Shown here in pieces: positions 4,333 to 21,804 of a stretch of DNA of 21,964 nucleotides (positions within the stretch are counted from its first letter, which is position 1; each line of letters opens with the position of its first letter). Source of the stretch: Pseudomonadota bacterium (GTDB lineage Bacteria; Pseudomonadota; Gammaproteobacteria; Burkholderiales; JABEVD01). The stretch is from assembly GCA_021811205.1 (NCBI GenBank), contig JAJZPK010000013.1, forward strand, positions 1 to 21,964, read 5' to 3'. A program made the translations under genes and the position numbers. A model generated the notes under the pieces. The model did no database searches. It saw only the letters and a list, made by a program, of their open reading frames with translations, and was not told the origin of the DNA.

Positions 4333-4430
4333 CCGGCTTCCCTCGGAAAACAGAATCCCTGAAAGGGGATGAAGAGGAGGATGGCCATGAAGGTCCATAT
4401 GCTGCGCAACGTGTCTGTAGAGGCTTCCAT
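4329..4430 (-). CDS. 33-residue membrane-like micro-ORF coupled to fumC
   Basis: Seen: an ATG at 4430 follows a near-ideal ribosome site (GGAGG, 4-5 bases upstream) and opens a 33-codon frame. Its TGA overlaps the fumC ATG as ATGA. The product starts MEASTDTLRSIWTFMAILLF and then has a short hydrophobic stretch ending in ...FCFPREAG, compatible with one membrane helix. A strong promoter (TTGAGT-16-TATTAT) would start the message about 22 bases before this ATG, so it would be the first cistron. Inference: either a small membrane protein or a translated leader setting fumC expression through translational coupling. I know of no family for it, and it shares a frame with nothing recognisable. Confidence 0.5.
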   Translation of the reverse strand: MEASTDTLRSIWTFMAILLFIPFQGFCFPREAG

Positions 4431-4459
4431 TTTCCCTCCATTCAAGCGTTGATGATCCA

Positions 4460-4487
4460 ATAATAGGACCTATTCCCAATAACTCAA
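4460..4487 (-). promoter_or_regulatory. Promoter of the micro-ORF-fumC operon with overlapping palindrome
   Basis: Minus strand: -35 TTGAGT (4487-4482), 16-base spacer, -10 TATTAT (4465-4460), giving a start near 4453. A perfect palindrome AATAGG-A-CCTATT (4462-4474) covers the -10 and half of the spacer, where a bound repressor would block polymerase. The regulator is unknown. Confidence 0.5.
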
Positions 4488-4544
4488 GAACTATGAAAGG
4501 AGCGGATTTGCGTGTACCATGCCAGATACGGAAAAGAACCCGCC

Positions 4545-6685: not shown

Positions 6686-6686
6686 T

Positions 6687-9233
6687 TCAGGCTGCCATGA
6701 ACCCTGCTTCTTCAGCCCTGAAGCCGATGTGCTCCAGCGCTTCTTCAACCTGATCGATCAGAACCAGGCAGAGCTCTCCGGGATTGAGCCTGGAAAGCGC
6801 AAGGTCGATTGCCGAAAATTCGCCCCTGATTTCGCTGACGCGCTTCAATCGCGACGCGCCCGAAAGACCCGCTTTCAGAAGCGCAAGCACTTCCCCGTCC
6901 GCCCGGCCGCGCTGGCACTGGTCTTCGTAAAGGATGGCTTCGTCGAAGGCCGCGCCGAGCATTTCCGTCTGCAGCCTGATGTCTTCGTCCCTTCTGTCAC
7001 CGGCTGCGCTGATGACGACCGTTCTGCGTCTTGCGGGAATGGCATCGACGGCCTTCACCAGGGCATGGATGGCGTCCGGGTTGTGGCCATAGTCGGCGAT
7101 GACCGTCGCTCCCCGGTAGTCGAACATGTTGAATCTGCCGGGGGTATTGGAAGGATCGTTTTCGAACCCTGAAAGCGCGCGCCTGACCGTATTCCATTCG
7201 ATCCCCAATGCCCAGGCCGCGGCAACAGAAGCCATGGCGTTTTCCATCTGGAAGGGAAGAGTGCCGCATCGGGTCAATGGAATCCTGTCCCAGGGTATGA
7301 ATTCATCGACGCCTTGTCCCGAAGCATGGATGCCGTCAGCGGTCGAAAAGACCACGCGCTCGCCATTGGCGCGATGCGAAAGGATGAGGGGATTGTTTTC
7401 GCTTGAAGAGAAAAAGATGACCGATCCGGGACAGACATCGGCCATGGCTGCGACGATGGAATCGTCCGCATTGAGCACGGCCGCGCCCCAGGGCGCCACG
7501 TTCTTCACGATCACGCGTTTCACGACCGCAAGATCCTCGACCGTATTGATGTATGAAAGTCCCAGATGGTCGCCTATCCCGATATTGGTGACGATTGCGA
7601 CATCGCATCGGTCGAAGGCCAGCCCTTCCCTGAGGATGCCCCCGCGTGCAGTTTCCAGAACCGCTGCATCGACGTCCGGATGGGAAAGCACATTCCTTGC
7701 GCTCTTCGGTCCGCTGCAATCTCCGGTATCGATGCGCTTTCCTGAAATGTAAACGCCGTCTGAATTGGTCATGCCGACGCGCAGGCCGGATTCTTCGAGC
7801 AGCCTCGCGGTCAGCCTGACCGTCGTGGTCTTGCCGTTCGTCCCGGAAACGGCGACGACCGGAATCCTGCCGGTTTCCTCTTCGGAAAAGAGTTCAGCCA
7901 CGATGGCTTGTCCGACCGGCCTCCCCTTCCCGTAAGAGGGCGAAAGATGCATGCGCAACCCGGGCGCTGCATTGACTTCGACGATGGCGCCGCCTTGTTC
8001 CTCAAGCGATCTAGCCACGGATTCGCAGACGATGTCCACGCCGCAAACGTCGAGCCCGACCATCCTGGCAGCCTCCACCGCGCGGGCGGCAACCTCGGGA
8101 TGAACCTCGTCCGTGACATCGGTGGCCGTGCCGCCCGTCGAAAGATTGGCATTGTTCCTGAGCACGACGCGCCTTCCCTTTTCGGGAATTGAATCTGCAT
8201 CCAGGCCCTGTTTTTCCAGTGTGGAAAGAGCGATGTCGTCGAGGCGGATTTTGGTCAATGACGTGGCGTGCCCTTCTCCCCTCAAAGGATCGCTGTTGAC
8301 AACAGCGACCAGCTGCGCGACGCTGCGCTCGCCGTCTCCGACGACGAAAGGCGGATCGCGCCTTGCTGCCGCGACCATGGATGCTCCGACGACCAGGATG
8401 CGGTAGTCGCATCCCGGAATGTAGCGCTCGACGATGACTTCATCCCTGACCTTTTCGGCCGCATCGTATGCGGCCATGATTTCATCTCTTCCCGAGATGT
8501 TCACGGCGATGCCCTTGCCCTGGTTGCCGTCCCTGGGTTTCACCACCACGGGGACGCCTATTTCACAGGCGGCAAGCCAAGCGTCCTCCCTGTCGTCAAC
8601 CGTCCTGCCTTGCGGAACAGGGACGCCTGCAGCATCGAGCAGTATCTTGGTGAGTTCCTTGTCCTGCGCGATGGATTCGGCGATTGCGCCGCATGCATCC
8701 GTTTCGGCCGCCTGGATGCGGCGCTGGCGGCTCCCCCAGCCGAACTGGACGAGGCTGCCTTCGGTGAGCCTTTTCATGGGAATGCCGCGTTCGAGCGCGG
8801 CAAATGCGATGGAGCCCGTGCTCGGGCCTAGCCTCAGATCTTCGTCCAGTTCGCGCAGCTCGGAAACTGCGGATTCGAGATCGAACGGCGTGCCTTCCAT
8901 GACTGCATTGCAAATATCCACGGCCGCTTGAAGCGCCCTTCTTCCTACGTCCTCCTCGCTGTATTCGACGACGACCTGGTAGATGCCGGGCTCGGGGGAA
9001 GCCACTGTCTTGCAGAAATCGACCGGGCATCCGGCCCTCGCCTGCAATTCGAGCGCAATCAGCGCAAGCGCATGGGCGCAGCTTTCGACTCGCTTGATTT
9101 CAGGCAGGCGCTCATGAAGCCGCACCTCGAAATCGGGTGTTGGTTCGTCCGTGCACGACACGATGGCCTCGACGGCGGTGCGCCTGCTCCACAAATTGGG
9201 TCCCCTCAGGGCTCTGACGCGCGTGATGTTCAT
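6687..9233 (-). CDS. cphA: Cyanophycin synthetase with intact ATP-grasp and Mur-ligase domains
   Basis: An 848-residue enzyme that alternately adds Asp (ATP-grasp domain) and Arg (Mur-ligase domain) to build multi-L-arginyl-poly-L-aspartate, a cytoplasmic nitrogen store. Seen: the N-terminus MNITRVRALRGPNLWSRRTA is typical. The ATP-grasp region (about 190-450) has VVKPRDGNQGKGIAVN and VEVNAAPGLRMHL. The Mur-ligase P-loop SGTNGKTTTVRL (463-474) is intact, and the C-terminal part includes YGHNPDAIHALV. The length is close to full for the family. Its ATG overlaps the stop of the upstream paralogue (ATGA), so both are made from one message. No cyanophycinase or isoaspartyl dipeptidase gene is in the window. 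Confidence 0.96.
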   Translation of the reverse strand: MNITRVRALRGPNLWSRRTAVEAIVSCTDEPTPDFEVRLHERLPEIKRVESCAHALALIALELQARAGCPVDFCKTVASPEPGIYQVVVEYSEEDVGRRALQAAVDICNAVMEGTPFDLESAVSELRELDEDLRLGPSTGSIAFAALERGIPMKRLTEGSLVQFGWGSRQRRIQAAETDACGAIAESIAQDKELTKILLDAAGVPVPQGRTVDDREDAWLAACEIGVPVVVKPRDGNQGKGIAVNISGRDEIMAAYDAAEKVRDEVIVERYIPGCDYRILVVGASMVAAARRDPPFVVGDGERSVAQLVAVVNSDPLRGEGHATSLTKIRLDDIALSTLEKQGLDADSIPEKGRRVVLRNNANLSTGGTATDVTDEVHPEVAARAVEAARMVGLDVCGVDIVCESVARSLEEQGGAIVEVNAAPGLRMHLSPSYGKGRPVGQAIVAELFSEEETGRIPVVAVSGTNGKTTTVRLTARLLEESGLRVGMTNSDGVYISGKRIDTGDCSGPKSARNVLSHPDVDAAVLETARGGILREGLAFDRCDVAIVTNIGIGDHLGLSYINTVEDLAVVKRVIVKNVAPWGAAVLNADDSIVAAMADVCPGSVIFFSSSENNPLILSHRANGERVVFSTADGIHASGQGVDEFIPWDRIPLTRCGTLPFQMENAMASVAAAWALGIEWNTVRRALSGFENDPSNTPGRFNMFDYRGATVIADYGHNPDAIHALVKAVDAIPARRRTVVISAAGDRRDEDIRLQTEMLGAAFDEAILYEDQCQRGRADGEVLALLKAGLSGASRLKRVSEIRGEFSAIDLALSRLNPGELCLVLIDQVEEALEHIGFRAEEAGFMAA

Positions 9234-11389
9234 GTGTTTTCCTTGTCGAATGATTCCAGGACTTCCCTGATCATGTTCCTGTCCAAATCCAGTGCCAGGG
9301 CGGCCGCAGCGCCGGCCAGGGCGACTTCCGGCCTTCCGGAGAAGCGCGCAAAGTCGAAGAGCTGCGCCTCTTGCCCGCCTTCTCTCGTATAGATGCTTCC
9401 TTCCCTCGCGAAAACCGCACGTCCCGCATCGGGAAGAACGGATTCATCGAGCGAATAAAAGATCGTCTCGCCGTCGCAATATTGCGCCATGGCGGCAACC
9501 CGTTTATCCATCGCGTTCAGCACGGCTGCACCCTTCGGCAGCACGACATCGACCTGGGTGCGCAGCACGGTGGCCATCTTGTCCGCGTCGAGAATGTCGA
9601 ATTCGGCATCCATGGCGTCTTCCGATATGCCCGTCACCACCCCGACCTGGCAGCGGTCGTAGGCGAGCCCTTCGGCGAGAATGACTTTCGGTCCGTTCTC
9701 GAAGACGGCCGCATCGACGGCAGGATTGAGCAGCGCCTTGCGGGCGGATGCGAAATTCGCGCAATTTCCTTTCGAAACCTGTCTTTTTCCGAGGAAAAAT
9801 CCTGCCCCGCAGGCCATGCCGACATTGAAATTCGCATGCTCCAACATGGAGGCGACCAGTCTCGCCAGATCCGAATTCTCCCCGGTTCCGCTGATGCCGA
9901 CGACAGGTATCCTGCCGTCTTCCGATTCATCGAACAGGCTGTCTATGATGAATTTCCCGACCGGACGGCCCATGCCTACCGCAGGCTTCAGATGCATCAG
10001 CAGGCCTGGGCCCGCGTTGACCTCGACGATGGCGCCGTTCTGTTCGGAAAGCGGCCTGGAAATGTCTTCGGCGAGCAAGTCGATGCCCGCGATGTCGAGC
10101 CCGACGATCCTGGCAGCCAGGGCGGCAATTGCAGCCGTATCAGGATGGACCTTGTCGGTCACGTCAAATGCCACGCTGCCGTTGCGCTGGACGAGCACTG
10201 AAACGCCTTTCGGCGGAATGGAATCGGGAGAAAATCCCTGGCGCTGCAGTTCGAGACGCGCAGCAGAATCGAGTCTGACGAGGTTGAGAGGATGATCTTC
10301 AGACGAGCCTCTGAGCGGATTGCTGTTGATCTGCGCTTCGATCAGCTCGGTGATCGTGGCGCGTCCATCTCCAGTCACGCAAATCTCCTCGCCCCTTGCC
10401 GCTGCCGCGAGCTTTCCGCCCACGATCAGGAGACGATGCTCTATACCCGGCACGAAGCGCTCGACGATGACGCCGCTTCCCTCTTCCTTCGCCACCGAAA
10501 AAGCCGTTTCGACCTGGTCCTTCGTGATCAGGTTGATGAACACCCCCCTGCCGTGGTTGCCGTCGACAGGCTTGACGACGACGGGCAGGCCAATGTCCTG
10601 TGCGGCTTCCCAGGCTTCTTCAGCGGATGAAACCTCGACGCCTTCGGGAACGGGGACGCCGCAGTCGGAAAGCAGCCGTTTGGTGAGCGACTTGTCGCGC
10701 GATATGCTCTCTGCGATCGCCGGCGTCGCATCGGTCTCTGCCGTCCATATCCTGCGCTGGCGTGCGCCGTAGCCGAACTGCACGAGATTGCCTTCGGAGA
10801 GGCGCAAGGCCGGAATGTCGCGGTCGTCCGCAGCATCCACGATGCAGGCCGTGCTGGGGCCCAGGCAAAGCGAATCGGCCATGCGGCGCAGACCCCTCAC
10901 GGTCGAATCGATATCGAAGGGCATGTCCTTCATGGCGGCGAGAACGAGTTCCTTGGCCGCATCCAGGCAGGCCCTGGTGAGCTTTTCGTGATAGGCGCGG
11001 ACGACTACCTTGTAGACCCCCCGCTTCGAGGTTTCCCTTGCCTTGCCGAAACCGCCTGGAAGACCCGCAAGCCCCTGCAGCTCGAGCGTGACATGCTCGA
11101 GGATATGGCATGGCCAGGTTCCGTCTTCGAGCCGCTTCAGGAATCCGCCGCGCTCGCCGATGCTGCAGCGGTGCTCGATCAGGCCGGGAAGCCAGGCGGA
11201 GAGCCTGTCGTAAAAACCGGGTATGACGTTCGAAGGAAAGTCCTCGAGAACCCCGATGTCGACCCTGGCCTCGAGCACGGGCCTGTAGGTCCAGATGCCC
11301 GGTCCGCCCAGATAGCGCACATCGAGAAATGCCATATCGGCATCGTAGGGTACGGTTTCAAACCGTTTGACAGCGGAAATGGTAGACAT
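9230..11389 (-). CDS. Cyanophycin synthetase paralogue with degenerate Mur-ligase site (CphA')
   Basis: About 719 residues, clearly related to cphA downstream: FLDVRYLGGPGIWTYRP, the ATP-grasp part with VVKPVDGNHGRGVFINL and VEVNAGPGLLMHL. The Mur-ligase half is damaged. Where cphA has GTNGKTT this protein has GTGENSD (residues 501-507), lacking the P-loop lysine, and it stops roughly 110 residues earlier, losing most of the last Mur domain. Known: cyanobacterial CphA2 also lost this ATP site and instead joins beta-Asp-Arg dipeptides; paired cphA'/cphA genes are known in betaproteobacteria. Inference: this copy may recycle dipeptides or be a structural partner of CphA. Start: the ATG at 11389 has AGGG 4 bases upstream. 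An ATG at 11413 is possible but would be almost leaderless from the predicted promoter. Confidence 0.88.
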   Translation of the reverse strand: MSTISAVKRFETVPYDADMAFLDVRYLGGPGIWTYRPVLEARVDIGVLEDFPSNVIPGFYDRLSAWLPGLIEHRCSIGERGGFLKRLEDGTWPCHILEHVTLELQGLAGLPGGFGKARETSKRGVYKVVVRAYHEKLTRACLDAAKELVLAAMKDMPFDIDSTVRGLRRMADSLCLGPSTACIVDAADDRDIPALRLSEGNLVQFGYGARQRRIWTAETDATPAIAESISRDKSLTKRLLSDCGVPVPEGVEVSSAEEAWEAAQDIGLPVVVKPVDGNHGRGVFINLITKDQVETAFSVAKEEGSGVIVERFVPGIEHRLLIVGGKLAAAARGEEICVTGDGRATITELIEAQINSNPLRGSSEDHPLNLVRLDSAARLELQRQGFSPDSIPPKGVSVLVQRNGSVAFDVTDKVHPDTAAIAALAARIVGLDIAGIDLLAEDISRPLSEQNGAIVEVNAGPGLLMHLKPAVGMGRPVGKFIIDSLFDESEDGRIPVVGISGTGENSDLARLVASMLEHANFNVGMACGAGFFLGKRQVSKGNCANFASARKALLNPAVDAAVFENGPKVILAEGLAYDRCQVGVVTGISEDAMDAEFDILDADKMATVLRTQVDVVLPKGAAVLNAMDKRVAAMAQYCDGETIFYSLDESVLPDAGRAVFAREGSIYTREGGQEAQLFDFARFSGRPEVALAGAAAALALDLDRNMIREVLESFDKENT

Positions 11390-11422
11390 GACCCTATTCA
11401 AAGCAAACTTCATGCCAAAATT

Positions 11423-11451
11423 ATTATATTGATTACAATCAATCAACTAAA
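11423..11451 (-). promoter_or_regulatory. cphA'-cphA promoter
   Basis: A consensus -10 TATAAT at 11428-11423 with a weak -35 (TTTAGT, 11451-11446, 17-base spacer) would start transcription near 11416. That leaves a leader of about 27 bases before the ATG at 11389. The poor -35 and the FNR box filling the spacer suggest a regulated promoter. Confidence 0.5.
11429..11442. promoter_or_regulatory. Perfect FNR/ANR-type box in the cphA' promoter
   Basis: TTGATTACAATCAA matches the FNR/ANR consensus TTGAT-N4-ATCAA at every defined base, and the symmetry extends to 16 bases (ATTGATT-AC-AATCAAT, 11428-11443). On the minus strand it directly abuts a consensus -10 (TATAAT, 11428-11423). It therefore lies in the spacer, centred about 20 bases before the probable start, a position expected for repression by the bound regulator rather than class II activation. 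For the divergent exporter its centre is about 167 bases before the start codon. Confidence 0.65.
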
Positions 11452-11491
11452 TGCTTTTATCGGGATCTGAAGAGGGGAAAAGTGTCGCCGA

Positions 11492-11567
11492 TTTGAGACG
11501 CTTTTTATCGAAAAAAGGAAAAATCCTTGATAGACAGGGATGAGGCCTGTCTCAAAATGGAGACAGG
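11492..11567. repeat. Cluster of GAGAC/GTCTC repeats able to form alternative hairpins
   Basis: Upstream of the exporter: TTTGAGAC (11492-11499), AGACAGG (11532-11538), CCTGTCTC (11546-11553, with GTCTCAAA at 11549-11556) and GAGACAGG (11560-11567). The CCTGTCT segment can pair with the copy before it (7 bp, 7-base loop), with the copy after it (8 bp, 6-base loop), or, through GTCTCAAA, with the distant TTTGAGAC. Mutually exclusive pairings are typical of operator arrays or attenuators, but no T-run follows. Confidence 0.45.
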
Positions 11568-11589
11568 TGTCTGCTTGCCCGCTTGGCGC

Positions 11590-11595
11590 TATACT
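11590..11595 (+). promoter_or_regulatory. Possible -10 element of the exporter gene
   Basis: TATACT lies 7 bases before the ATG at 11603 and would give a nearly leaderless message. No good -35 is present (GTGTCT at 17 bases). A Shine-Dalgarno is also missing, which agrees with leaderless translation but does not prove it. If the -10 is false, transcription starts further upstream and includes the GAGAC repeats. Confidence 0.3.
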
Positions 11596-11602
11596 GCACG
11601 GC

Positions 11603-13717
11603 ATGAATTCCATCCCGGAAAGCCTGCGCGACATGCTCCGCCCTGGAGAGGAAGCGCTCGCCCATCTGGAGCCCGATCTGGACGAAAACTCCAGGTTTTC
11701 GAACAGCTATTTGCTGCTCACCGACCGTCGCCTCATCCACTTGGGACAAAACGGCAGCCTGCGCGAATGGCCAAGAAGCAAGGGGATGGTTCTCGAACGG
11801 TTCGACCATGCAGGAACGGGGCGCCTCGAGCTGAAGGACGAGACATCCCTGGTCGGCGTCTGGCGATATACGTTGGGCAGGGACATTGCAGCGCGGGATT
11901 TCGTCGAGCGCTTCAGAGGAAATGAACCCGAGCCCGCCCGGACCGAGGAGCAGGCATCCACTCCTGTCTCGCCCAGGACGCTGCTGCGCCTCTGGCGCTT
12001 CGCCAAACCCTACAAGGGAAAGCTTTTTACCGGATTCATGCTGTCGATCGCATCGACCGCTGCAGCCATGATCCCGCCCTATCTCACCATGCCGCTGATG
12101 GACGACGTGCTCATTCCGTTTCAGAACGGCAAGGCGATAAACGTCTCCCTGGTCGAACGCTACCTGAGCGGGCTGCTTGCTGCAGCGCTGGTAGCCTGGG
12201 CGCTCGGCTGGGTGAGGACTTACATCCTTGCCAGGGTCTCCGAAAGGATAGGTGCCGATCTGCGCATCGCCACATACACGCATCTGCACGGGCTTTCACT
12301 CGAATATTTCGGCGGGAAGCGCACCGGGGACCTCGTCGCGCGGATCGGATCGGAGACGGACAGGATCAATGTCTTCCTTTCTCTCCATCTGCTCGATTTC
12401 GCGACCGATCTGCTGATGATCGGCATGACCGCCGCCGTATTGCTGTCGATCAATCCCATGCTCGCCCTGGTAACCCTCCTCCCCCTGCCCTTCATCGTCT
12501 GGATGATCCATGCCGTCAGGGACAGGCTGCGTCATGGCTTCGAACAGGCCGACAGGGTCTGGTCCGAAATCACCAACGTCCTGACCGACACCATCCCCGG
12601 CATACGCGTGGTCAAGGCATTCGCCCAGGAAGCGCGGGAAGTGAAGCGCTTCACGGATGCGAACGCTCACAATCTGGTCGTGAACGACAGGGTGAACACG
12701 GTCTGGTCCCTCTTCGCGCCGAGCGTCACGCTGCTCACCGAAATCGGCCTGCTCGTCGTCTGGATCTTCGGCATCTGGCAGGTCTCGCAAAGCAAAATCA
12801 CGGTGGGGGTGCTGACCGCTTTTCTCGCCTACATCACCCGATTCTACAGCAGGCTCGATTCGATGAGCCGCATCGTCTCCGTGACCCAGAAGGCCGCTGC
12901 TGGCGCGAAGCGCATTTTCGAAATACTCGACCAGTCGTCGAGCGTGCCCGAAGCGTCCATACCGGTCCATCCGGGCAGGGTCGAGGGGGCCATCGAGGCG
13001 AAGGGCATCGAATTCCGCTACGGCAGCAGGGCCATCCTGCACGGCGTGGACCTTTCCATTTCCCCCGGGGAGATGATCGGACTGGTCGGCCAGAGCGGTT
13101 CCGGAAAAAGCACGCTGATCAACCTGATCTGCCGGTTCTACGACCCTGCCAGGGGATCCATCCTCGTCGATGGGCGGGACATCCGCTCGTACCCGATCGA
13201 GGAATACAGGCGCAACATCGGTCTCGTCCTGCAGGAGCCCTTCCTGTTCTTCGGCACCATTGCGGAAAACATCGCCTACGGAAAACCCGAAGCGTCCATG
13301 GCGGAAATCATTGCTGCAGCGCGCGCAGCGCACGCCCACGAATTCATATTGCGTCTGCCTTTCGGCTACGATTCGCTGGTCGGAGAGCGGGGCCAGTCGC
13401 TCTCCGGAGGGGAGCGCCAGAGAATATCGATCGCCAGAGCGATCCTCATCGATCCGCGCATCCTGATCATGGATGAAGCGACTTCTTCGGTCGACACGGA
13501 AACGGAGCGCGAGATCCAGGGTGCGCTCGAAAACCTGGTCAGCGGACGCACCACCATCGCCATCGCACACAGGCTATCCACCTTGCGCCGCGCGGACCGC
13601 CTGGTCGTGATGGAAAAGGGAAGAATCGTCGAAATCGGCCGCCACGATGATCTGCTCGAGGCGAAGGGCGCCTATTTCCGTCTCCATGAAGCGCAACAGG
13701 CGAAAGAAAATGCTTGA
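11603..13717 (+). CDS. Cyanophycin-associated ABC exporter (fused permease and ATPase)
   Basis: A 704-residue half-transporter of the MsbA/LmrA layout. Residues 1 to about 115 are an unusual extra cytoplasmic domain (LLLTDRRLIHLG inside it resembles a PH-like module). About 125-430 hold six membrane helices. About 455-704 hold the ATPase with Walker A GQSGSGKSTL (near 497), signature LSGGERQR (near 600), Walker B ILIMDEATSSVD (near 623) and an H-loop in IAIAHRLSTL. Known: exporters of this form recur beside cphA genes in proteobacteria together with a DUF1854 protein. The substrate is unproven. The frame is open from an ATG at 11540, but 11603 fits the family start. It overlaps the DUF1854 gene by 8 bases. 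Confidence 0.9.
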   Translation: MNSIPESLRDMLRPGEEALAHLEPDLDENSRFSNSYLLLTDRRLIHLGQNGSLREWPRSKGMVLERFDHAGTGRLELKDETSLVGVWRYTLGRDIAARDFVERFRGNEPEPARTEEQASTPVSPRTLLRLWRFAKPYKGKLFTGFMLSIASTAAAMIPPYLTMPLMDDVLIPFQNGKAINVSLVERYLSGLLAAALVAWALGWVRTYILARVSERIGADLRIATYTHLHGLSLEYFGGKRTGDLVARIGSETDRINVFLSLHLLDFATDLLMIGMTAAVLLSINPMLALVTLLPLPFIVWMIHAVRDRLRHGFEQADRVWSEITNVLTDTIPGIRVVKAFAQEAREVKRFTDANAHNLVVNDRVNTVWSLFAPSVTLLTEIGLLVVWIFGIWQVSQSKITVGVLTAFLAYITRFYSRLDSMSRIVSVTQKAAAGAKRIFEILDQSSSVPEASIPVHPGRVEGAIEAKGIEFRYGSRAILHGVDLSISPGEMIGLVGQSGSGKSTLINLICRFYDPARGSILVDGRDIRSYPIEEYRRNIGLVLQEPFLFFGTIAENIAYGKPEASMAEIIAAARAAHAHEFILRLPFGYDSLVGERGQSLSGGERQRISIARAILIDPRILIMDEATSSVDTETEREIQGALENLVSGRTTIAIAHRLSTLRRADRLVVMEKGRIVEIGRHDDLLEAKGAYFRLHEAQQAKENA

Positions 13718-14147
13718 GCTTTCGAAGAATTCCTTCGGGCGACTCGTCTTCGGCAAGACCGAAGTCGTGCCCATACGCGCCTTCCCGGTGACGAGCCCTC
13801 GATCCGGAATATCGCTCGCCGACTCGAACGGGAAGGAGCTCGCCTGGATAGAAAATCTCGATGACCTGGAGGAGGGCGACAGGAAGCTGGTCGAGGAAGC
13901 GCTTCAGGCGAGGGAATTCCTTCCCGAAATCCTCCGTCTATCGTCCGTGTCGAGACATGCGGCGCCCTGCGAATGGCGCGTCGAAACCGACAAGGGAAAA
14001 ACCGCTTTCACGCTGGACAGCGAGGACGACATCCGCAGGGTTTCCTCCCACCTCGTCGTGACGGACAGCCACGGCGTGAGCTTCCTGATCAAAGATCCTG
14101 CCGCTCTGGATCGGCACAGCAGAAGGCTCCTGGCCAGCTTTCTCTAG
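13710..14147 (+). CDS. DUF1854 protein, partner of the cyanophycin-associated exporter
   Basis: A 145-residue protein with the DUF1854 pattern: an early GKTEVVPIRAFPVTSPRSGI, then GKELAWIENLDDLEEG, a helical REFLPEILRLSSVSRHAAPCE, given here as REFLPEILRLSS, and a C-terminal VSFLIKDPAALDRHSRRLLA. Known: DUF1854 proteins sit directly downstream of ABC exporters in cphA neighbourhoods; their role is undetermined. No membrane segment is seen. The ATG at 13710 lies inside the 3' end of the exporter gene (8-base overlap), so the pair is co-translated. The stop shares its bases with the stop of the convergent GGDEF gene in one CTAG. Confidence 0.85.
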   Translation: MLELSKNSFGRLVFGKTEVVPIRAFPVTSPRSGISLADSNGKELAWIENLDDLEEGDRKLVEEALQAREFLPEILRLSSVSRHAAPCEWRVETDKGKTAFTLDSEDDIRRVSSHLVVTDSHGVSFLIKDPAALDRHSRRLLASFL

Positions 14148-15336
14148 GCCCGGGCAAGGGCTGCCGCATCAATCATGCCCGAATAGGCAGAAACCCTGTT
14201 TCGCCCTTCTTCCTTTGCGTGATAAAGCGCCTTGTCCGCCGCCTTGAAGAGAACGGAGAAATCGGCACCCGCATGGCTGGAATCGGCCATCCCGATGCTG
14301 ATGGTGCTCCTGACCCGCTCGCCTTCGTGCTCCAGGATCATTTCGGCATAGTTGCTTCTCAGCCGCTCGGCAAGCCCACCCACCTGGCTCTCGGTGGCGG
14401 AAGGCACAATATGCAGAATTCCTCCCCGCCGTACCTGGCGAAATAATCTCCTGCCCGGATCGTCTTCTGAGCGATGCTTGAAAGCTGCTTCAGCACCTCG
14501 TCCCCGACTGCATGACCGTATGTGTCGTTGATCGTCTTGAAATGGTCCACGTCTATCATCATGACGGTGAGCGGGACCATGGTGCGCGATGCGCGCGCAA
14601 GCATGCGTTCGGCTTCCCCCTCCAGGCTCCGCCTGTTGAAGGCGCCGGTCAGCACATCCCGCTCCGCAAGATGCTGCAGTTCGCCGGCCAGCCTGTAATT
14701 GAGCATCAGCACGAAACCGAAGCTCAGGCAGAGTTCGGCGACGATGATGATGAAGAAAGTCATATCGTTGATCGGCAATGCCGAATAGAGGGTATACGGC
14801 CGTCCAAGCGAAAAGGAGAGGACCACTACCCTGACGACGAGCATCAGGGCAATGATGGCGAAGGATGCGCCGGTCAGCCAGTAAGCGGTGCGAAGCGGCG
14901 GCTGTGCGGGAACAAGAAGCATCCTTGCGCAGGCCACATTGATCGCGATGAAGGCGACCGAATTCGCGATCACGCGGATATTGATGTCAGGGTCGACCAC
15001 CGAAAACAGGATGGTCTGGATCAACACGATGACGACGATCAGGATGGGGAAGCGCCAGTCCAGCTCCTTTTCCATGAAAGCCCTGATGCCGAGATATTGC
15101 AGCACCGAACTGCCTGAAATCAGCACGGATCCCAGCACGAGCCACCAGCCGGCGGTTGCAGGGGTAATCGGCAGGATGGCGAGGCCCAGGCTGAGCGAGA
15201 TGCACAAGCTCGCCAGCGCCCATAGCCCGACGCCGCGCACGTTCCGGGCATGCAGCCCTGCCAGCGCGAGCAACCCGGAAAGCAAAAGGGCCAGCACGGC
15301 TATCATGACCATCATGGTACGCGAATCGAGGTGCAT
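14144..15336 (-). pseudogene. Membrane GGDEF diguanylate cyclase broken by a frameshift
   Basis: The N-terminal half has about seven membrane helices (from MMVMIAVLALLLSGLLALAG to FFIIIVAELCLSFGFVLML), then the GGDEF domain with DVLTGAFNRRSLE, MMIDVDHFKTINDTYGH, the RAGD inhibitory site and the active site ARYGGEEF. Right after FCIL the frame ends in an unrelated tail (326 residues in all). The rest of the domain (PSATESQVGGLAERLR ... ADKALYHAKEEGRNRV) continues in another frame from about 14407. A one-base loss near 14400-14410 explains it, for example FCIL-LPSAT read from a missing base. The site is not a homopolymer, so a real mutation is as likely as a sequencing error. It follows atpC by 60 bases on the same strand. 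Confidence 0.85.
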
Positions 15337-15396
15337 CACTTGTCCACTGCATCGTTCAGGATATTTTGCATCAATTGCCCGCTTTTGTGAAAATTT

Positions 15397-15828
15397 TCAG
15401 AGCCCTGTGCGCTTGTGACCCAGATGCAGATAACCTCTGAGCGCGTTGAATGCCCTGGCGAGTTCAGCCTCTATCTGCACGTAGTCGATGGAAGTGGAGC
15501 GGTTTTTCATGGTCTCGGAAACCTTTCTTCCTTCTTCCGCCAGGCGATCTTCGCTCATTTCATCCTCGGGCAGCGCGAGGTCGGAAAGGATCGTCACGCT
15601 GCCGGGCTGCACTTCCAGCATGCCGCCCGAGACGTAGATGGTCTCCATGTCCTCCTTTTCCGGAATCCTCATTCGCACGGCCCCTGACTTGAGGCGGGAT
15701 ATCAGCGGCGCATGGCCTGGATAGATGCCGACTTCCCCCATTTCTGCCGGAGCGACGACAAATTCGACCATGCCTGAAAAAATCGATTTTTCTATGCTGA
15801 CGATGTCCACACGCACGGTCATTGCCAT
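15397..15828 (-). CDS. atpC: F1F0 ATP synthase epsilon subunit
   Basis: A 143-residue protein that closely follows the epsilon family: MAMTVRVDIVSIEKSIFSG, GEVGIYPGHAPLISRLKSG, IYVSGGMLEVQPGSVTILSD, and a C-terminal helical hairpin ending near LARAFNALRGYL. Known: epsilon binds gamma in the central stalk and its C-terminal helices can inhibit ATP hydrolysis. The ATG at 15828 has AGGAGA 6 bases upstream and gives the family N-terminus; a TTG at 15843 would only add MRRRS. It starts 11 bases after the atpG stop. In almost all bacteria atpD (beta) lies between these two genes, and here it is absent. Confidence 0.93.
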   Translation of the reverse strand: MAMTVRVDIVSIEKSIFSGMVEFVVAPAEMGEVGIYPGHAPLISRLKSGAVRMRIPEKEDMETIYVSGGMLEVQPGSVTILSDLALPEDEMSEDRLAEEGRKVSETMKNRSTSIDYVQIEAELARAFNALRGYLHLGHKRTGL

Positions 15829-15839
15829 TGATCTTCTCC

Positions 15840-16703
15840 TCAAACGGCCGCAGCGCCTGCGACGATCTCGGTGATTTCCTCCGTGATCGCCGCCTGCCTG
15901 GTCTTGTGGTAAATCTGCTTCAGCTCACCGATCGCATGATCCGCATTTTCCGTTGCAGCGTGCATGGCGACCATGCGCGCCCCCTGCTCGGAAGCCATGT
16001 TCTCTGCAACAGCTAGGTATATCTGGGACTCGATGTGACGCCGCAGCATTTCGTCGACGATGATCCTGGGGTCGGGCTCGTAAATGTAGTCCCAGTAGCC
16101 AGAAGGGCTGCCCAGCGCCTCCCCTTTCAATGGAAGCAGCTGCTCCATCACGGGCTGGTGGGAGATGGTGTTGACGAAACGCGTATAGCACATGAAGACC
16201 GCGTCCAGCCGCCCCTCCCTGTAGGCACGGAGGAGTATTCTCGTCGCAGGCGCAAAACGCTCCATTTTCGGCGCATCCCCCATTCCTACGGCAGCGGACA
16301 CGATTCTTGCATTCAGGCGCTTCATGAAAGAAAGCCCCTTCGCTCCCAGGGCGCAGACCTCGACCTCCACCTTCCTTTCCTCCCAGCCTTTCATGCTTTG
16401 CAGCGCAAGGCGCAGGGCATTGCTGTTCAGCGGGCCGCACATCCCCTTGTCGGAGGTGACAAGCAGCAGCCCGACGCGGCGCACATCCTCTCTGACGGCA
16501 AGATACGGGGATTTGTATTCGGGGTGGGCTCGGCTCATGTGCGCCGAAACGTTCCTGATCTTTTCGGCATAGGGTCTGGCCGCATCCATGGCGTCGCGCA
16601 CCATGCGTATCTTCGACTGGGCGACCATTTCCATGGCATGCGTGAGCTTGCGCAGCTTCTCGACCGTCCCGATCTTTCCGCGTATATCCTGCAGGCTGGC
16701 CAT
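15840..16703 (-). CDS. atpG: F1F0 ATP synthase gamma subunit
   Basis: A 287-residue rotor shaft subunit of F1. Both terminal helices that form the coiled-coil are well conserved: MASLQDIRGKI and KLTHAMEMVAQSKIRM at the start, AVAENMASEQGARMVAM and KTRQAAITEEITEIVAGA at the end. The middle has LLLVTSDKGMCGPLN and the usual TRFVNTISHQPVMEQLLPL. Nothing essential appears lost. ATG 16703 fits the family; ATG 16706 precedes it directly. AGAGGA lies 7 bases upstream. Oddly, the gene before it is a GGDEF cyclase (25 bases away) instead of atpA, and the gene after it is atpC instead of atpD. Either the organism's atp operon is split, or this is a second stalk module. Confidence 0.94.
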   Translation of the reverse strand: MASLQDIRGKIGTVEKLRKLTHAMEMVAQSKIRMVRDAMDAARPYAEKIRNVSAHMSRAHPEYKSPYLAVREDVRRVGLLLVTSDKGMCGPLNSNALRLALQSMKGWEERKVEVEVCALGAKGLSFMKRLNARIVSAAVGMGDAPKMERFAPATRILLRAYREGRLDAVFMCYTRFVNTISHQPVMEQLLPLKGEALGSPSGYWDYIYEPDPRIIVDEMLRRHIESQIYLAVAENMASEQGARMVAMHAATENADHAIGELKQIYHKTRQAAITEEITEIVAGAAAV

Positions 16704-16728
16704 CATGTCGTCCTCTCGGACGACAATG

Positions 16729-17895
16729 TTAGCGCATTTTGAACCGCTTCGATGTGAATGTTTGTTTAAACATGCCCCAGAAATCGGCTGCGCTTTCGAT
16801 GCAGCGCCTCAAATAATCGCCGTCTGCCGGACGTGTTTCAATGCACTCGCACACGACCCTGTTCCTTCCGGCTGATTTCGCCCGGTAGAGGGCCCTGTCG
16901 GCGGATTCGATCATGCGCGATGATTCCGCTTCCCCCTCTTCCAGCATCGACAGGCCGATCGAAATGGTGACGTTGAGCACCTGGCCGGATCCGACCCCGA
17001 ATGGGTGGTCGGCTATCCGCTCGCGGATCCGCTCCGCGATGTTTCTTGCATGGCTGACCGCCGTCTGGGGAAGCATGACGACGAACTCCTCTCCGCCGTA
17101 GCGCGCAACGGTGTCGCCTGCGCGAAGCTGTGACAGGATGATGCCTGCGACATGCCGCAGCACCTCGTCGCCTGCCTGGTGGCCGTAAGTGTCGTTGATG
17201 CGCTTGAATCTGTCGACATCGAGGAACATGCAGGCGAGCGGCTGGTTGTGGCGGCGCGCATTTCTTGCCTCGATCTCCGAGCGATGCTCGAAATAGCGCC
17301 GGTTCTGGACACCCGTCAGGGCATCGGTCAGCCCGATCAGCTTGAGCCGCTCCTGGTTCAGAGCGCTGCCCAGGCAGACGGAAATGATTGCCGTGAGGCG
17401 TTCCAGGAACTGGGTGCCGCAATCGCTGCAGTATCTTTCCGGGTCCGCGCTTCCGAAATGCAGGCTGCCGATCAGTTCGTCCTGGCGAACCAGCGGCAGC
17501 AATGCGACCGAAGCGATTTTCTCCGAATCGAAAAGCCCCCTGTGGATTGCGGGATCGTATGCGCCCAGAAGCGGACGGATGTTGTCGCGATAAAGCGATT
17601 CGAGCGCTTCCCCGGATTGGAGCAATGTCAGTCCGGAAAGACCGGCCTCACCCTCGAGTATCCTGGCCGCCTCGTATTCCGGATCGACGAGCGCCAGGGT
17701 GACGCATTCGACCCCGAAGGCAGCCTTGTATTCGGAAAGCAGCAGCCTCACCAGTTCGAGCAGGGAGGGTGCGCCGATCAGCCGACGCTCGAGCTGGTCG
17801 AAGCGGCGCATCTTGTCCTCGTTGCAGCGCGCCTCATGGAGCAGCGCCTCGAGCTGCTGGCGCAGCGAATAGTTTTCTGATTGCAGTTGGCCCAT
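16729..17895 (-). CDS. Soluble GAF-like/DUF484-type diguanylate cyclase (GGDEF)
   Basis: A 388-residue protein with no membrane segment. Residues about 5-40 form a coiled coil. About 40-185 look like a GAF/DUF484 sensor (LALVDPEYEAARIL, ASVALLPLVRQDELIGSLHF, ending LERLTAIISVCLGSALN). About 190-350 form GGDEF with DALTGVQNRRYFEHR, FLDVDRFKRINDTYGHQAGD, the inhibitory site RAGD (258-261), the active site RYGGEEF (GGEEF 267-271) and ADRALYRAKSAGRNRV. Known: it makes c-di-GMP from two GTP and is inhibited by product at RxxD. It carries a Cys pair (CSDC, 156-159) in the sensor. It is first in the run with atpG, atpC and the broken cyclase, and divergent from the BLUF gene. Confidence 0.92.
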   Translation of the reverse strand: MGQLQSENYSLRQQLEALLHEARCNEDKMRRFDQLERRLIGAPSLLELVRLLLSEYKAAFGVECVTLALVDPEYEAARILEGEAGLSGLTLLQSGEALESLYRDNIRPLLGAYDPAIHRGLFDSEKIASVALLPLVRQDELIGSLHFGSADPERYCSDCGTQFLERLTAIISVCLGSALNQERLKLIGLTDALTGVQNRRYFEHRSEIEARNARRHNQPLACMFLDVDRFKRINDTYGHQAGDEVLRHVAGIILSQLRAGDTVARYGGEEFVVMLPQTAVSHARNIAERIRERIADHPFGVGSGQVLNVTISIGLSMLEEGEAESSRMIESADRALYRAKSAGRNRVVCECIETRPADGDYLRRCIESAADFWGMFKQTFTSKRFKMR

Positions 17896-17903
17896 GACAA
17901 GTT

Positions 17904-17922
17904 AACGGCAAATTCGGCCGTT
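17904..17922. promoter_or_regulatory. Inverted repeat just upstream of the GGDEF gene
   Basis: AACGGC (17904-17909) and GCCGTT (17917-17922) are perfect inverted copies with a 7-base spacer, 9 to 27 bases before the cyclase ATG (17895). It could be an operator or a leader hairpin for the GGDEF-atpG-atpC run. No convincing -10/-35 pair was found for this gene. Confidence 0.3.
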
Positions 17923-17955
17923 TCTTTAAGAAATCGGGGCGGCTTTGCTCCTCCA

Positions 17956-17984
17956 TTGATGTTTCGGCAGGCTTGACTTAGAAT
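17956..17984 (+). promoter_or_regulatory. BLUF gene promoter
   Basis: -35 TTGATG (17956-17961), a 17-base spacer and -10 TAGAAT (17979-17984) predict a start near 17991 and a leader of about 32 bases to the ATG at 18024. It looks like a vegetative sigma-70 promoter. Confidence 0.5.
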
Positions 17985-18023
17985 CGGACCAGGGTGCCTT
18001 CGATCGAGAGCGCAAAAGCCAGC

Positions 18024-18428
18024 ATGATCCGTCTTCTTTACCATAGCCAGGCCGTCCGGCCTGTATCGGATGCCCAGACCCAGGACATTCTGGAATCCTC
18101 GCGCCGCAACAACGAAGCGCTCGGCGTGACCGGCGTGCTCGTTCAGGGCGGGGACACCTACATGCAGATCCTCGAGGGACCAGAGGAAAGCGTGCTCAAG
18201 CTGTATGTCAGGATCCTGGACGACCCGAGGCACCGGAACTGCAGCATCCTGCACGTTTCCCCCGCGCACAAGCGCATCTTCCAGAAATGGTCGATGGGAG
18301 TGGTCCAGAGCGATTCATCGCTGTTCGAGAAACTTGCCGATCTGCGCGACGCGTGCACAGAGACGATTCCGGCAAAGGCGTTCACCGATACCATGCTCGA
18401 TTTCGTCAGGCGGTTGAACGCGGCCTGA
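18024..18428 (+). CDS. Short BLUF-domain blue-light receptor
   Basis: A 134-residue stand-alone BLUF protein (residues 1 to about 95 plus a helical tail) that should bind FAD and sense blue light. All photocycle residues are present at the same spacing as in AppA: Tyr6 (MIRLLYHSQA), Asn30 (RRNNEALGVTGVL), Gln48 (YMQILEGPEESV), Trp89 and Met91 (FQKWSMG). No output domain is fused, so it must act through a partner protein. It is divergent from the soluble GGDEF cyclase, and some short BLUF proteins elsewhere control c-di-GMP enzymes or regulators. The ATG at 18024 fits the family; a GTG at 17994 would add ten residues and start almost at the predicted transcript end. Confidence 0.95.
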   Translation: MIRLLYHSQAVRPVSDAQTQDILESSRRNNEALGVTGVLVQGGDTYMQILEGPEESVLKLYVRILDDPRHRNCSILHVSPAHKRIFQKWSMGVVQSDSSLFEKLADLRDACTETIPAKAFTDTMLDFVRRLNAA

Positions 18429-18462
18429 GCACGGATCGCCACAGGCAACGCTCCGAGTCATT

Positions 18463-19272
18463 CTACCCGAGCTTCTCGACCGAATATCTGGCGTAAAGAC
18501 GATGGGACTGCCCCGGCAAAACCGTGACCACGTCGTCGGCCGCATTGCATGTCTCGACGCAGAGCATGCCCAGATGGTTTCCCACGTCCCCCATTTTTTC
18601 GGCCTTGTCTATCCCCGGATTCCAGACAACGGTAGACCGGCTGCCCTGCTTCTCTACCCTGATGATCCTTTTGAATCCTGGGTCGACAATCAGGCAATCG
18701 GACGCCGTGTCGACATAGATCCTGTCCACTTCGCCGTCTATTTTCACGGGCCCTTCCTGGATTCTCCTGCCGCCTCCCACCTTGTCTATATAGGAGACAT
18801 TCTCCAGCCCGCGCACTTCGATTTCTCTCGCGTCGCTCACCGCAAAATAGGTATGCAGCGCGCAGCCGAGCTCGAAGGGTTCGCTTCCCGTGTTGTGGGT
18901 GACGAGCTCGACTTCGAGCGCATGGCCCACTCTGAAGCTGCATTCCACGTAGGAGGGATGCGGCCAGAATGGCGACTGGGGAACCAGCCTCATCTTCGCG
19001 CCGGAATCATTCGATTCGATCAGCTCCCAGTCGAGGTTCCTTGCAATGCCGTGGGCAGGATAGGAAGGCTCGGTCGCATGGGGGCCGAACCAGGGCCAGC
19101 AGACCGGAATACCCCCTCTCACCGATTTTCCGCTGACGTATTTCGCCTGTTCCGAGAGCCACACCACAGCCGTCTCTCCTGAAGGCTTCCAGGTGAGCAA
19201 TTGCGCGCCCTGGCGCGTCAAGACGGCCTCCCCGGCCGGATTTTCTATCCTGATCAGTTCCAAATCATTCAT
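18463..19272 (-). CDS. D-hexose-6-phosphate mutarotase (YeaD-like aldose epimerase)
   Basis: A 269-residue beta-sandwich enzyme of the YeaD/glucose-6-phosphate 1-epimerase branch that interconverts alpha and beta anomers of hexose 6-phosphates in the cytoplasm. Motifs: GGIPVCWPWFGPH (53-65, with Arg52 just before), YPAHGIARNLDW with His74 and Arg78, CALHTYFAVSD with His140, and the catalytic Glu240 in LCVETCNAADDVV. The length is slightly under the E. coli enzyme. ATG 19272 follows AAGGA at 5 bases. It is convergent with the BLUF gene with a 34-base gap and no obvious terminator. Confidence 0.93.
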   Translation of the reverse strand: MNDLELIRIENPAGEAVLTRQGAQLLTWKPSGETAVVWLSEQAKYVSGKSVRGGIPVCWPWFGPHATEPSYPAHGIARNLDWELIESNDSGAKMRLVPQSPFWPHPSYVECSFRVGHALEVELVTHNTGSEPFELGCALHTYFAVSDAREIEVRGLENVSYIDKVGGGRRIQEGPVKIDGEVDRIYVDTASDCLIVDPGFKRIIRVEKQGSRSTVVWNPGIDKAEKMGDVGNHLGMLCVETCNAADDVVTVLPGQSHRLYARYSVEKLG

Positions 19273-19374: not shown

Positions 19375-20487
19375 CTACACGTAAGACGCGAACTGGTTGC
19401 TGTCGCGCGTCAGCAATTGCATAAGCCGGGGATTGATGAACAGCTTTTCCTTGCCCGCATTCGCTTCGCTCAACACCCCGATCTCCACCAGCTGCTTGAG
19501 GTATTGCGAAGCCGTTTGCCGCTTGGCGATGCCGGCTTCGATCAGATTGCTGATGCGGCAATACGGCAGCTCGAACAGCAAACTGACCAGTTCGTGACTA
19601 TAAACCTTGGGCAAGCTCGCACGCACATGCTCTGCGGTCTGGTCGGACAAGGCGCGAATCGCCGCGATCTTCGCCGTCGTCCAGCTTGCGGTTTCTTCGA
19701 CACCCTTGAGGATATAAAGCAGCCACGATTCCCAATCCCGCTCGCGCGTTACCTGCAGCAGCAGGCGGTAATAGTCCGACTTGTTCAGGATGATGTAGCG
19801 GCTCAGATAAAGAATGGGCAACGTCAGCAAACCTTCCTGTATCAGAAACAGGCTGTTCAGCACCCGCCCGGTGCGACCGTTTCCATCGGTGAACGGGTGT
19901 ATCGCTTCGAACTGGTAATGCCCGACCGCCATGCGGACCAAAGGATCAAGTTCCGTTTCTTTGTGCAGGTAGCGCTCCCAATTCGCCAGCAGATCGCGCA
20001 GCAAGGCTTCGCCTTCGGGCGGCGTATAAATGGTTTCGCCCGTCCCATCATTTTTCAGCGTCGTGCCCGGGGTGCGGCGCACCGTCATCTCTACCCCCTT
20101 GATCGTGGTGCATATCTGCTCCGCAGTGCGCGTATTGAGCGGATATTGCTTGAGCGCCGCGTACCCCTCGAACAGCGAACGCGAGTAGCGCAACGCCTCC
20201 CTGGTCGACGGGTTGGCCTGCGCCTCATTGCCCACATGCCTGAACAGCTCGTCGGCGGTCGTCACGATATTCTCGATTTCCGAACTGGCGCGCGCTTCCA
20301 GCAGCGGCAAGGTGCTGATCAGCATGGCTTGGTTGGGAATCAGCTCCGCCGCCTGTTTCAACTCGGCCAGCGCGGCACGGGCGGTAATGCACCGCTTCAG
20401 CACGGCGCGGGTTTCCACCTCTGCCGCAGGCGGCAGAGGCGGCAAGTCATTGTACGGACGATCCGGTTTCCAGCCCGGCGAGTTCAT
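19375..20487 (-). CDS. Fic-family protein AMPylase, self-inhibited class II, with winged-helix C-terminus
   Basis: About 370 residues (ATG 20487; a GTG at 20493 would add two). The N-terminal part holds the inhibitory helix motif SSEIEN (S-x3-E-N, residues 68-73 from this start), whose Glu blocks ATP in class II Fic proteins. The core has the complete catalytic loop [12 protein letters not shown] (about 197-208) with the active His. A C-terminal winged helix ([20 protein letters not shown]) suggests DNA binding. Known: Fic enzymes usually transfer AMP to target proteins; those with this layout are common, mobile and sometimes autoregulated. Four GACATG-type sites lie over and upstream of its promoter. 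Neighbours to the right are toxin-antitoxin remnants and genes, so this begins an accessory region. Confidence 0.92.
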
Positions 20488-20520
20488 GTTCACTTTTTCT
20501 GCATATTTCGACGCATCTGC

Positions 20521-20797: not shown

Positions 20798-21127
20798 ATG
20801 AGCCTGCTTACTCTACTCAGATATCAGACAGAAACCGGGAAGACCCCGTTTACCCATTGGCTGGTCGGCCTGAAAGATGTGCGGGCAAGAGCTCAAATCG
20901 AAATACGCCTGCGCCGCGCTTCCATCGGGAATTTCGGCGATTGTGAGCCTGTCGGCGAAGGCGTCATTGAACTGAGAATAGATATCGGTGCAGGGTATAG
21001 GGTTTACTGCGCAAGGCATGGGAAAGAGGTGGTCATACTGCTGTGCGGCGGCGACAAAAGCACGCAGCATGCAGATATCAGGCTGGCCAAGGAATACTGG
21101 ACTGACTGGAAACGGAGGAACAAATGA
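20798..21127 (+). CDS. RelE/HigB-like toxin of a type II toxin-antitoxin system
   Basis: A 109-residue protein of the phage-derived Gp49/HigB-like RelE superfamily (the HI1419-like killer protein group). It has FTHWLVGLKDVRARAQIEIRL, split here as FTHWLVGLKD and RARAQIEIRLRRA, then GNFGDCEPVGEGVIELRID, GYRVYCARHGKEVVILLCGG and the group signature GDKSTQHADIRLAKEYW. Known: members are ribosome-dependent or free mRNA interferases neutralised by the partner. The ATG at 20798 lacks a ribosome site and is close to the predicted transcript start. Toxin precedes antitoxin, the order typical of this group, with an ATGA overlap. Confidence 0.92.
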   Translation: MSLLTLLRYQTETGKTPFTHWLVGLKDVRARAQIEIRLRRASIGNFGDCEPVGEGVIELRIDIGAGYRVYCARHGKEVVILLCGGDKSTQHADIRLAKEYWTDWKRRNK

Positions 21128-21459
21128 GTGACACCAAATTGAAAGCTTCGGTTTCGCATCACGATGAGCTCATCAAGGAGCTTCGCGCCGATCGTCAGTT
21201 CGCGGTTGAATACCTGAAAGCGGCTTTGTCCGAACTGGATGCCCCGGACAATCGAGCCGCCGGCCTGCTGGCGATGAGGGATGTTGCAGAAGCGTATGGG
21301 GGGCTGGGTGCGGTTGCCCAGGATGCCGGGATAAACAGGGAATCCTTATATCGCGCCTTGTCCCCCAAAGGCAACCCGACTCTGAAGACGATTCTTGCAG
21401 TCATGAAGGCTGTCGGAATGAAGCTTTCGGTAGAGCCGAGCGATCACGTGCACGCCTGA
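21124..21459 (+). CDS. Helix-turn-helix antitoxin of the HI1420-like addiction module
   Basis: A 111-residue partner of the preceding toxin. The N-terminal part (ELRADRQFAVEYLKAALSE) is the family's toxin-contacting helix region. The C-terminal part is an XRE-like DNA-binding domain: LLAMRDVAEAYGGLGAVAQD, GINRESLYRALSPKGNPTLK and AVMKAVGMKLSV, all diagnostic of the addiction-module antidote group. GGAGG about 5 bases before the ATG gives it a much stronger ribosome site than the toxin has, as expected for keeping antitoxin in excess. It probably binds the GTGTAG/CTACAC operator upstream. Confidence 0.93.
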   Translation: MSDTKLKASVSHHDELIKELRADRQFAVEYLKAALSELDAPDNRAAGLLAMRDVAEAYGGLGAVAQDAGINRESLYRALSPKGNPTLKTILAVMKAVGMKLSVEPSDHVHA

Positions 21460-21706: not shown

Positions 21707-21720
21707 TTACCTGCAGGTAA
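21707..21720. promoter_or_regulatory. Perfect 14-bp palindrome
   Basis: TTACCTGCAGGTAA has fully matching 7-bp arms with no spacer, at the end of an AT-rich block. The form suits a dimeric repressor of TetR or similar type. No gene start lies close downstream, so its target is unclear. Confidence 0.4.
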
Positions 21721-21804
21721 GCGTGAGGCTTGTAGAGGTTGCCGGGAACGGCGACAGCCCGAACGGGTGGGATCCTCGAACTCAGGACCTGCGCTTCTTT
21801 TCGG

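Follow-up and report, generated by a model that had tools for sequence, protein, structure and literature searches.

Why should the genes for gamma and epsilon, the rotor stalk of an F-type ATP synthase, stand side by side among signalling genes, with no gene for a catalytic subunit next to them? The question is posed by a stretch of 21,964 nucleotides (contig JAJZPK010000013.1, positions 1 to 21,964, assembly GCA_021811205.1, from a member of the Burkholderiales lineage JABEVD01; hereafter the window), in which atpG and atpC lie between two genes for GGDEF proteins. In relatives, this orphan atpG-atpC pair is additional to the main ATP synthase operon, intact, old, monophyletic and under purifying selection. 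Judging from sequence comparison, we consider it probable, by a modest measure, that its products, gamma2 and epsilon2, form an alternative central stalk that would exchange into the main F-type ATP synthase, and that the pair is the remnant of a lost second synthase.

The orphan pair and its two proteins

Four genes of the window follow one another on the same strand, separated by 25, 11 and 60 bases when inner start codons are taken; the open reading frames bear out this run, which the initial annotation had described. The absence of atpA and atpD that it had remarked on was also found. A tblastn search with the alpha and beta subunits of a relative located neither gene in the window (best atpD match, E 0.96) and gave no match in nine loci of relatives (L001-L009), and contigs bearing the orphan pair had no row for PF00006. 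The canonical arrangement, with atpA and atpD beside atpG and atpC, is absent at the window pair. The initial annotation had named a rearrangement during assembly among the findings that would refute its reading. Misassembly is ruled out by a separate metagenome-assembled genome (MAG): positions 5846-17930 align with its contig, L001, in one collinear block of 12,128 bp at 88% identity, and there GGDEF-atpG-atpC-GGDEF is followed by genes for a DUF1854 protein and an ABC transporter, two cphA genes and waaA.

Both stalk proteins match F-type families. The window gamma covers 285 of 285 profile positions of PF00231 (295.9 bits; cut-off 39.9) and passes the NCBIfam F-type models NF004144 (385.8; cut-off 372) and TIGR01146 (292; cut-off 194), while epsilon scores 91 bits against PF02823 (cut-off 27) and passes its F-type NCBIfam model (143.9; cut-off 135). 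The top PDB matches of the pair are bacterial gamma and epsilon chains, which we take to be those of E. coli. Orphan gamma retains the C-terminal helix and a stretch matching WDYLYEPD of the E. coli protein, and has no large insert relative to bacterial gamma. An AlphaFold model of epsilon2 built on a 16-row alignment (mean predicted local distance difference test score 81.5) comprises a beta-sandwich and two predicted helices, 93-110 and 113-140, with low confidence for the last five residues. Six substitutions mark orphan gammas (A28Q, Q35R, H64S, L86M, V214I and S240G, in E. coli numbering without the methionine). At each site 34 of 34 distinct orphan gammas share a residue that none of 34 main gammas has, save at 214, where two of the 34 have it. 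L86 adjoins C87, which presumably, from crosslinking work, faces the DELSEED region of beta.

A stalk additional to the main operon

Is the pair the only stalk of the cell, or an extra one? The initial annotation had left the choice between a split operon and an accessory stalk pair. A contig scan with the window gamma returned 35 loci, and neighbouring genes were inspected for L001-L012. In L001-L009 the gamma is 71-94% identical to that of the window and atpC follows atpG after 10-15 bases; in L010 and L011 (52-57% identity) the distance to the following atpC is about 1.5 kb, like that in ordinary operons. An orphan gamma is present in all nine genomes of the family that were searched (G001-G009). 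Six of them (G001, G002, G003, G005, G006 and G007) hold a complete main atpA-atpG-atpD-atpC operon on one contig, and in the other three it is cut by contig ends (G008, at 437 of 480 codons of atpA; G009, within atpA; G004, where atpD-atpC remain). Main-type epsilon gives two rows in every genome and main-type gamma two in eight, G004 showing the orphan alone; beta gives one in nine, alpha one in eight, delta one in seven and c one in eight. The subunits missing from drafts are gamma, alpha and delta in G004, and delta and c in G008. For main-type alpha, beta, delta and c, none of the nine genomes showed a second copy, and five of the strongest remaining PF00006 rows, when tested, proved to be FliI. 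Among main-type subunits, only gamma and epsilon, the rotor stalk, are duplicated in these relatives. When 399 genomes of the order were sampled, 385 matched gamma, and at least one further strong orphan was among the matches listed, in G289, where gamma and epsilon each give two strong rows. P0022, a protein recorded under the name Sulfuriferula multivorans, is identical to the orphan gamma of G289, and we infer that G289 belongs to this species.

A split ATP synthase operon, in which the cell would have no stalk genes other than those relocated to a signalling operon, is contradicted in relatives: their main operons retain atpG and atpC, including that of G001, whose orphan gamma is 94% identical to the window gamma. 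The window itself, lacking atpA and atpD, is all that speaks for such a split, and we hold it to be extremely unlikely. The accessory alternative fared better and is supported, since the main operons of the relatives, complete in six of nine, exist beside the pair.

The partner of the pair might also be another enzyme. Six of the nine family genomes (G001 and G005-G009) contain a second, distant ATPase set that includes alpha, beta, gamma, epsilon and c; it shows as a pair of PF00006 rows accompanied by a weak gamma row, located on the same contig or on linked ones. We call it N-type-like from its gene order (beta before alpha-gamma), its best gamma model and its divergence; its gammas and alphas score below the N-type cut-offs, while its alpha passes general F-type alpha cut-offs. 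That the pair serves this set, or a soluble F1-like ATPase, instead of the main enzyme would be in keeping with the frequency of the set and with the scores of its alpha. However, a gamma is already part of the set, and the identity of orphan gamma is 22-26% with N-type-like gammas as against 56-58% with main gammas. Moreover, G002-G004 carry the pair and give no N-type-like rows, although these are smaller drafts and perhaps incomplete. The window gamma stays below the cut-off of the N-type gamma model TIGR03323 (83.3 bits; cut-off 282.35), which the N-type-like gammas of the family also miss (54-69 bits), and no N-type D-C...A-G gene order occurs in the window. We regard service to either of these enzymes as very unlikely.

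Age and selection

In a gamma tree of 79 rows the orphans, Sulfuriferula included, form one clade of 40 rows with support 100/99, and the main gammas of the family form a different clade. Orphan epsilons likewise make up one clade (100/100), apart from the main subunits. The trees took 40 of 120 listed gammas, leaving out P0002, and 16 of 120 listed epsilons. The possibility that the main gamma of the family had recently been duplicated was rejected, a joint clade of orphans and main gammas having p-AU 0.006 in the approximately unbiased (AU) test, and so was a grouping of the Sulfuriferula orphan with the Sulfuriferula main gamma (p-AU 3.4e-5).

Pairwise ratios of non-synonymous to synonymous substitution (dN/dS) were 0.05-0.18 for orphan gamma (nine pairs) against 0.04-0.09 for main gamma (seven pairs), and 0.03-0.30 for orphan epsilon (nine pairs) against 0-0.06 for main epsilon (seven of eight pairs computable); these values are rough because dS is near 1 in many distant pairs. 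Where both copies were measured, the orphan had the higher ratio in six of seven pairs for gamma (the exception being G008-G009) and in seven of seven for epsilon. The ratios indicate that the pair evolves faster than the main copies, yet clearly under purifying selection. No internal stop occurs in the ten directly linked gammas or epsilons, and this, with the low dN/dS, rules out decayed pseudogenes. A functionless relic of a lost second operon would be in line with this mostly faster change, as well as with the likely kinship to such operons described below. It is nevertheless disfavoured by purifying selection, with dN/dS of about 0.03-0.3 at family depth, and by the intact reading frames, and we give it hardly any credence.

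Probable origin in a second F-ATPase operon

Where did the pair come from? At least three genomes of the order (G043, G087 and G401) contain a second F-ATPase operon that ends in the order A-D-G-C. In G087 (L171) it reads a-c-b-delta-alpha-beta-gamma-epsilon and has a c subunit to itself, the first four names being assigned by eye; G043 (L172) has the same A-D-G-C end, its operon being visible from A to C only. G401 comes from the same family as S. multivorans, and the DNA of its second operon from within atpF through atpH and atpA to atpD is 99.8-100% identical to the main operon of the same genome. Of the old atpG between atpA and atpD, an in-frame truncation has left 33 codons, and a divergent atpG2-atpC2 is placed after atpD; for the genes of subunits a and c, the main locus contains no closely similar DNA. 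The gammas of the three operons group together (100/99), with the orphan gammas as their sister clade at 85/93, in a tree from which 18 of the 40 listed gammas were dropped as near-duplicates, and their epsilons are sister to the orphan epsilons at 92/85.

From these placements, the likely source of the pair is a second operon of order A-D-G-C that lost all but its G-C end. Such an origin, which would explain the otherwise odd adjacency of atpG and atpC, is not proven because a grouping of the A-D-G-C gammas with the Sulfuriferula main gammas was not rejected (p-AU 0.185). The G401 operon is a natural swap experiment: it supports the view that gamma2-epsilon2 could work with main-type alpha, beta and delta, and it may be that the rotor parts c, gamma and epsilon travel together.

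Genomic context and the proposed link to c-di-GMP

The initial annotation had tied the pair to cyclic di-GMP (c-di-GMP) and had called for the same order to be looked for in related genomes. The conserved unit is the atpG-atpC pair, not the cyclases. A DUF484-GGDEF gene stands directly upstream of atpG in the window and in G001, where GGDEF genes flank the pair on both sides, and a protoglobin-GGDEF gene takes this place in G003. The upstream neighbour is a yicC-type gene in G002 and G004 (named by eye) and a gene for an MCP-CZB protein in G005, and upstream genes are divergently oriented in G006-G009. A diguanylate cyclase is therefore directly upstream in three of ten directly linked loci, with other neighbours in seven. 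The adjacency behind the proposed tie is local to these three loci and the full order recurs in L001; neither is general. Each of the ten genomes searched has 32-56 GGDEF matches, so chance adjacency is not negligible; a crude post hoc binomial for two cyclase contexts in seven gives 0.008, or 0.012-0.016 with other counts, and adjacency beyond chance is suggestive at most.

These contexts bear on another explanation, namely that gamma2-epsilon2 moonlights in c-di-GMP signalling, acting with the two cyclases outside the ATP synthase. The flanking GGDEF genes of the window and G001, and the protoglobin-GGDEF and MCP-CZB genes upstream in G003 and G005, would fit such a role. It is difficult to reconcile with the seven loci that have no cyclase directly upstream, with the abundance of GGDEF genes in every genome and with the membrane cyclase of the window, which is frame-broken while the pair is intact, and we think it highly improbable.

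In S. multivorans, gamma2 and epsilon2 lie about 3.5 kb apart in a tetrathionate-reductase-like locus, whose TtrA-, TtrS- and TtrR-like proteins score under the equivalog cut-offs. G240 has a lone epsilon2 of the orphan clade (L192, G240:C138, 9095-9526), and for gamma it gives two rows, the main one and a distant one (126.6 bits). This epsilon2 gene adjoins genes for a multihaem cytochrome, an MtrB/PioB porin and a NapC/NirT protein. No FNR-type box was found upstream of orphan pairs, the best sites having 3-4 mismatches of 10.

The lone epsilon2 raises the question of whether the products build a working synthase at all. Gamma2-epsilon2, or epsilon2 by itself, could be a decoy made under stress that binds F1 or the c-ring and stops ATP hydrolysis or proton leak. 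The epsilon C-terminal domain has an inhibitory role in E. coli and Bacillus, and the predicted model of epsilon2 keeps the two helices of that domain. Set against a decoy, gamma2 is full length, with the WDYLYEPD-equivalent stretch and the C-terminal helix, which is more than a plug needs, and the related pair of G401 belongs to a complete operon. We consider a decoy unlikely, though it is the rival to which we give most weight.

A proposed model of stalk exchange

How might an alternative central stalk operate? Gamma2-epsilon2 would be expressed apart from the main atp operon and would replace gamma1-epsilon1 in a complex with the main alpha3beta3, delta and c-ring; the enzyme would then exist in a second form, with different coupling or different self-inhibition of ATP hydrolysis. 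In the window, expression of the pair may be tied to the signalling genes. We infer all three elements for this lineage, that is, stalk exchange, altered inhibition or coupling and, in the window, signalling-tied expression.

Several points weigh against stalk exchange. The six substitutions fixed in orphan gammas could forbid assembly with the main alpha and beta. The sister placement of the A-D-G-C gammas falls short of 95% support, and the alternative grouping that was not rejected bears on the same step. The orphans have no c-ring of their own, whereas in G401 a divergent c subunit accompanies gamma2-epsilon2. There is no evident shared regulation, given that the context is not conserved and that an FNR-type box is lacking. 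The genomes of the relatives are MAGs, of which some bins are cut or possibly mixed: FliI contigs with the same printed reading-frame starts occur in two bins (L058 in G003 and L066 in G008), which suggests that bins may be mixed.

What are the implications of an exchangeable stalk? To our knowledge, the bacterial ATP synthase is usually taken as having one central stalk per enzyme set, with tuning left to the C-terminal domain of epsilon or to separate inhibitors. If the model is true, a bacterium may change the shaft rather than the motor. The carriers are related to sulfur oxidisers, and a stalk-only duplicate kept over long evolution suggests a swappable shaft on the same engine. More tentatively, and with doubts that outweigh our confidence, we envisage exchangeable rotors in a broader sense: one alpha3beta3, delta and Fo set could be served by two stalks, switched by respiratory or sensory state, with wiring specific to each lineage. 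The stalk would be a regulatory cartridge, placed under cyclases in the window, under a protoglobin-GGDEF protein in G003 and in the tetrathionate-reductase-like locus in S. multivorans. A second stalk that evolved naturally makes the share of gamma and epsilon in regulation and coupling testable.

Comparison with known systems

No description of an orphan atpG-atpC pair was recognised in titles and abstract openings of the open-licence PubMed Central (PMC) literature, and no publication on S. multivorans and ATP synthase was found in the same collection, nor anything usable on the habitat of the SKS MAGs. By analogy, the closest functional parallel may be ATPC1 and ATPC2 of the Arabidopsis chloroplast, where, according to the available text, the enzyme with the second gamma is redox-insensitive and active in light and dark (PMC5522872). 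As with gamma2-epsilon2, a second gamma gene stands beside one catalytic set, and the isoform alters the regulation of the assembled enzyme; the plant genes are nuclear, the same text describes gamma without an epsilon partner and the regulation is by redox, whereas the bacterial orphan has no large insert.

N-type ATPase operons resemble the pair in being an extra ATPase gene set beside the main F-type operon. They differ in encoding, as far as the accessible part of the source describes, a complete enzyme in an operon that opens with atpD and atpC and includes atpQ and atpR (PMC5376962), while the orphan pair comes without other subunits and its proteins are of the main F type. A survey of ATP-synthase transcription units in 2248 bacterial strains reports epsilon-beta and gamma-containing modules, so that parts of the gene set stand apart there too; the set is divided, not duplicated, and the portion of the survey available to us has no module of gamma and epsilon only (PMC5709465). 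The Type 2 and Type 3 F1-like clusters of mycoplasmas also lie beside the main operon and include gamma- and epsilon-like genes, but, in the text at hand, alpha- and beta-like subunits and further proteins as well (PMC3369863). The A-D-G-C operons share the adjacent G and C and likely hold the nearest relatives of the orphan gamma and epsilon; they differ in having their own a, c, b, delta, alpha and beta, as far as the visible part of G043 allows this to be said.

Other features of the window

Table 1. Positions of the genes discussed, in the window unless a locus is named.
Feature	Position	Strand	Basis and remarks
DUF484 + GGDEF diguanylate cyclase, soluble, GGEEF motif present	16729..17895	-	First gene of the run; profile matches
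Orphan atpG2, full-length F1 gamma	15840..16706 (ATG at 16706 or 16703)	-	Profiles, structure matches, tree
Orphan atpC2, full-length F1 epsilon	15397..15828	-	Profiles, trees, predicted structure
atpC open frame	15397-15843; MAMT start at 15828 likely	-	Open reading frames
Membrane GGDEF protein, N-terminal piece extending beyond the GGEEF motif; premature end of frame	14359..15339	-	Start 15339/15336
C-terminal part of membrane GGDEF domain, other frame	14144..14407	-	Reading frames, profiles, relative L001
Cyanophycin-associated ABC transporter, convergent neighbour outside the unit	11540-13717	+	Profile matches
DUF1854 protein, convergent neighbour outside the unit	13647-14147	+	Profile matches
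Cyanophycin cluster: two cyanophycin synthetases, associated ABC transporter, DUF1854 protein	6687-14147		Curated families
Gene for a BLUF blue-light sensor, transcribed divergently from the DUF484-GGDEF gene	17994-18428	+	Profile match
Fic gene	19375-20493		Profile match
Gp49-like / HI1420-like addiction module pair	20798-21459		Profile matches
DUF3800-VII RNA	21712-21798		74.4 bits
Second F-ATPase operon of G401	L156 (G401:C1:1564000-1578000), 4346-9856		DNA comparison with main operon

The membrane GGDEF gene had initially been read as a single gene over 14144-15339. This span does cover both of its pieces, but they lie in two frames, the break falling near 14406, just after the GGEEF motif; the counterpart in L001 is intact, with 396 codons (10813-12003), and the break in the window is either a sequencing error or recent decay. 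A promoter/terminator scan of 14000-18500 gave 3 and 4 hits, against 1.4 (sd 1.3) and 3.2 (sd 1.9), respectively, in shuffled sequences, an uninformative difference. Since the block shared with L001 stops at 17930, the neighbour on the BLUF side differs in L001.

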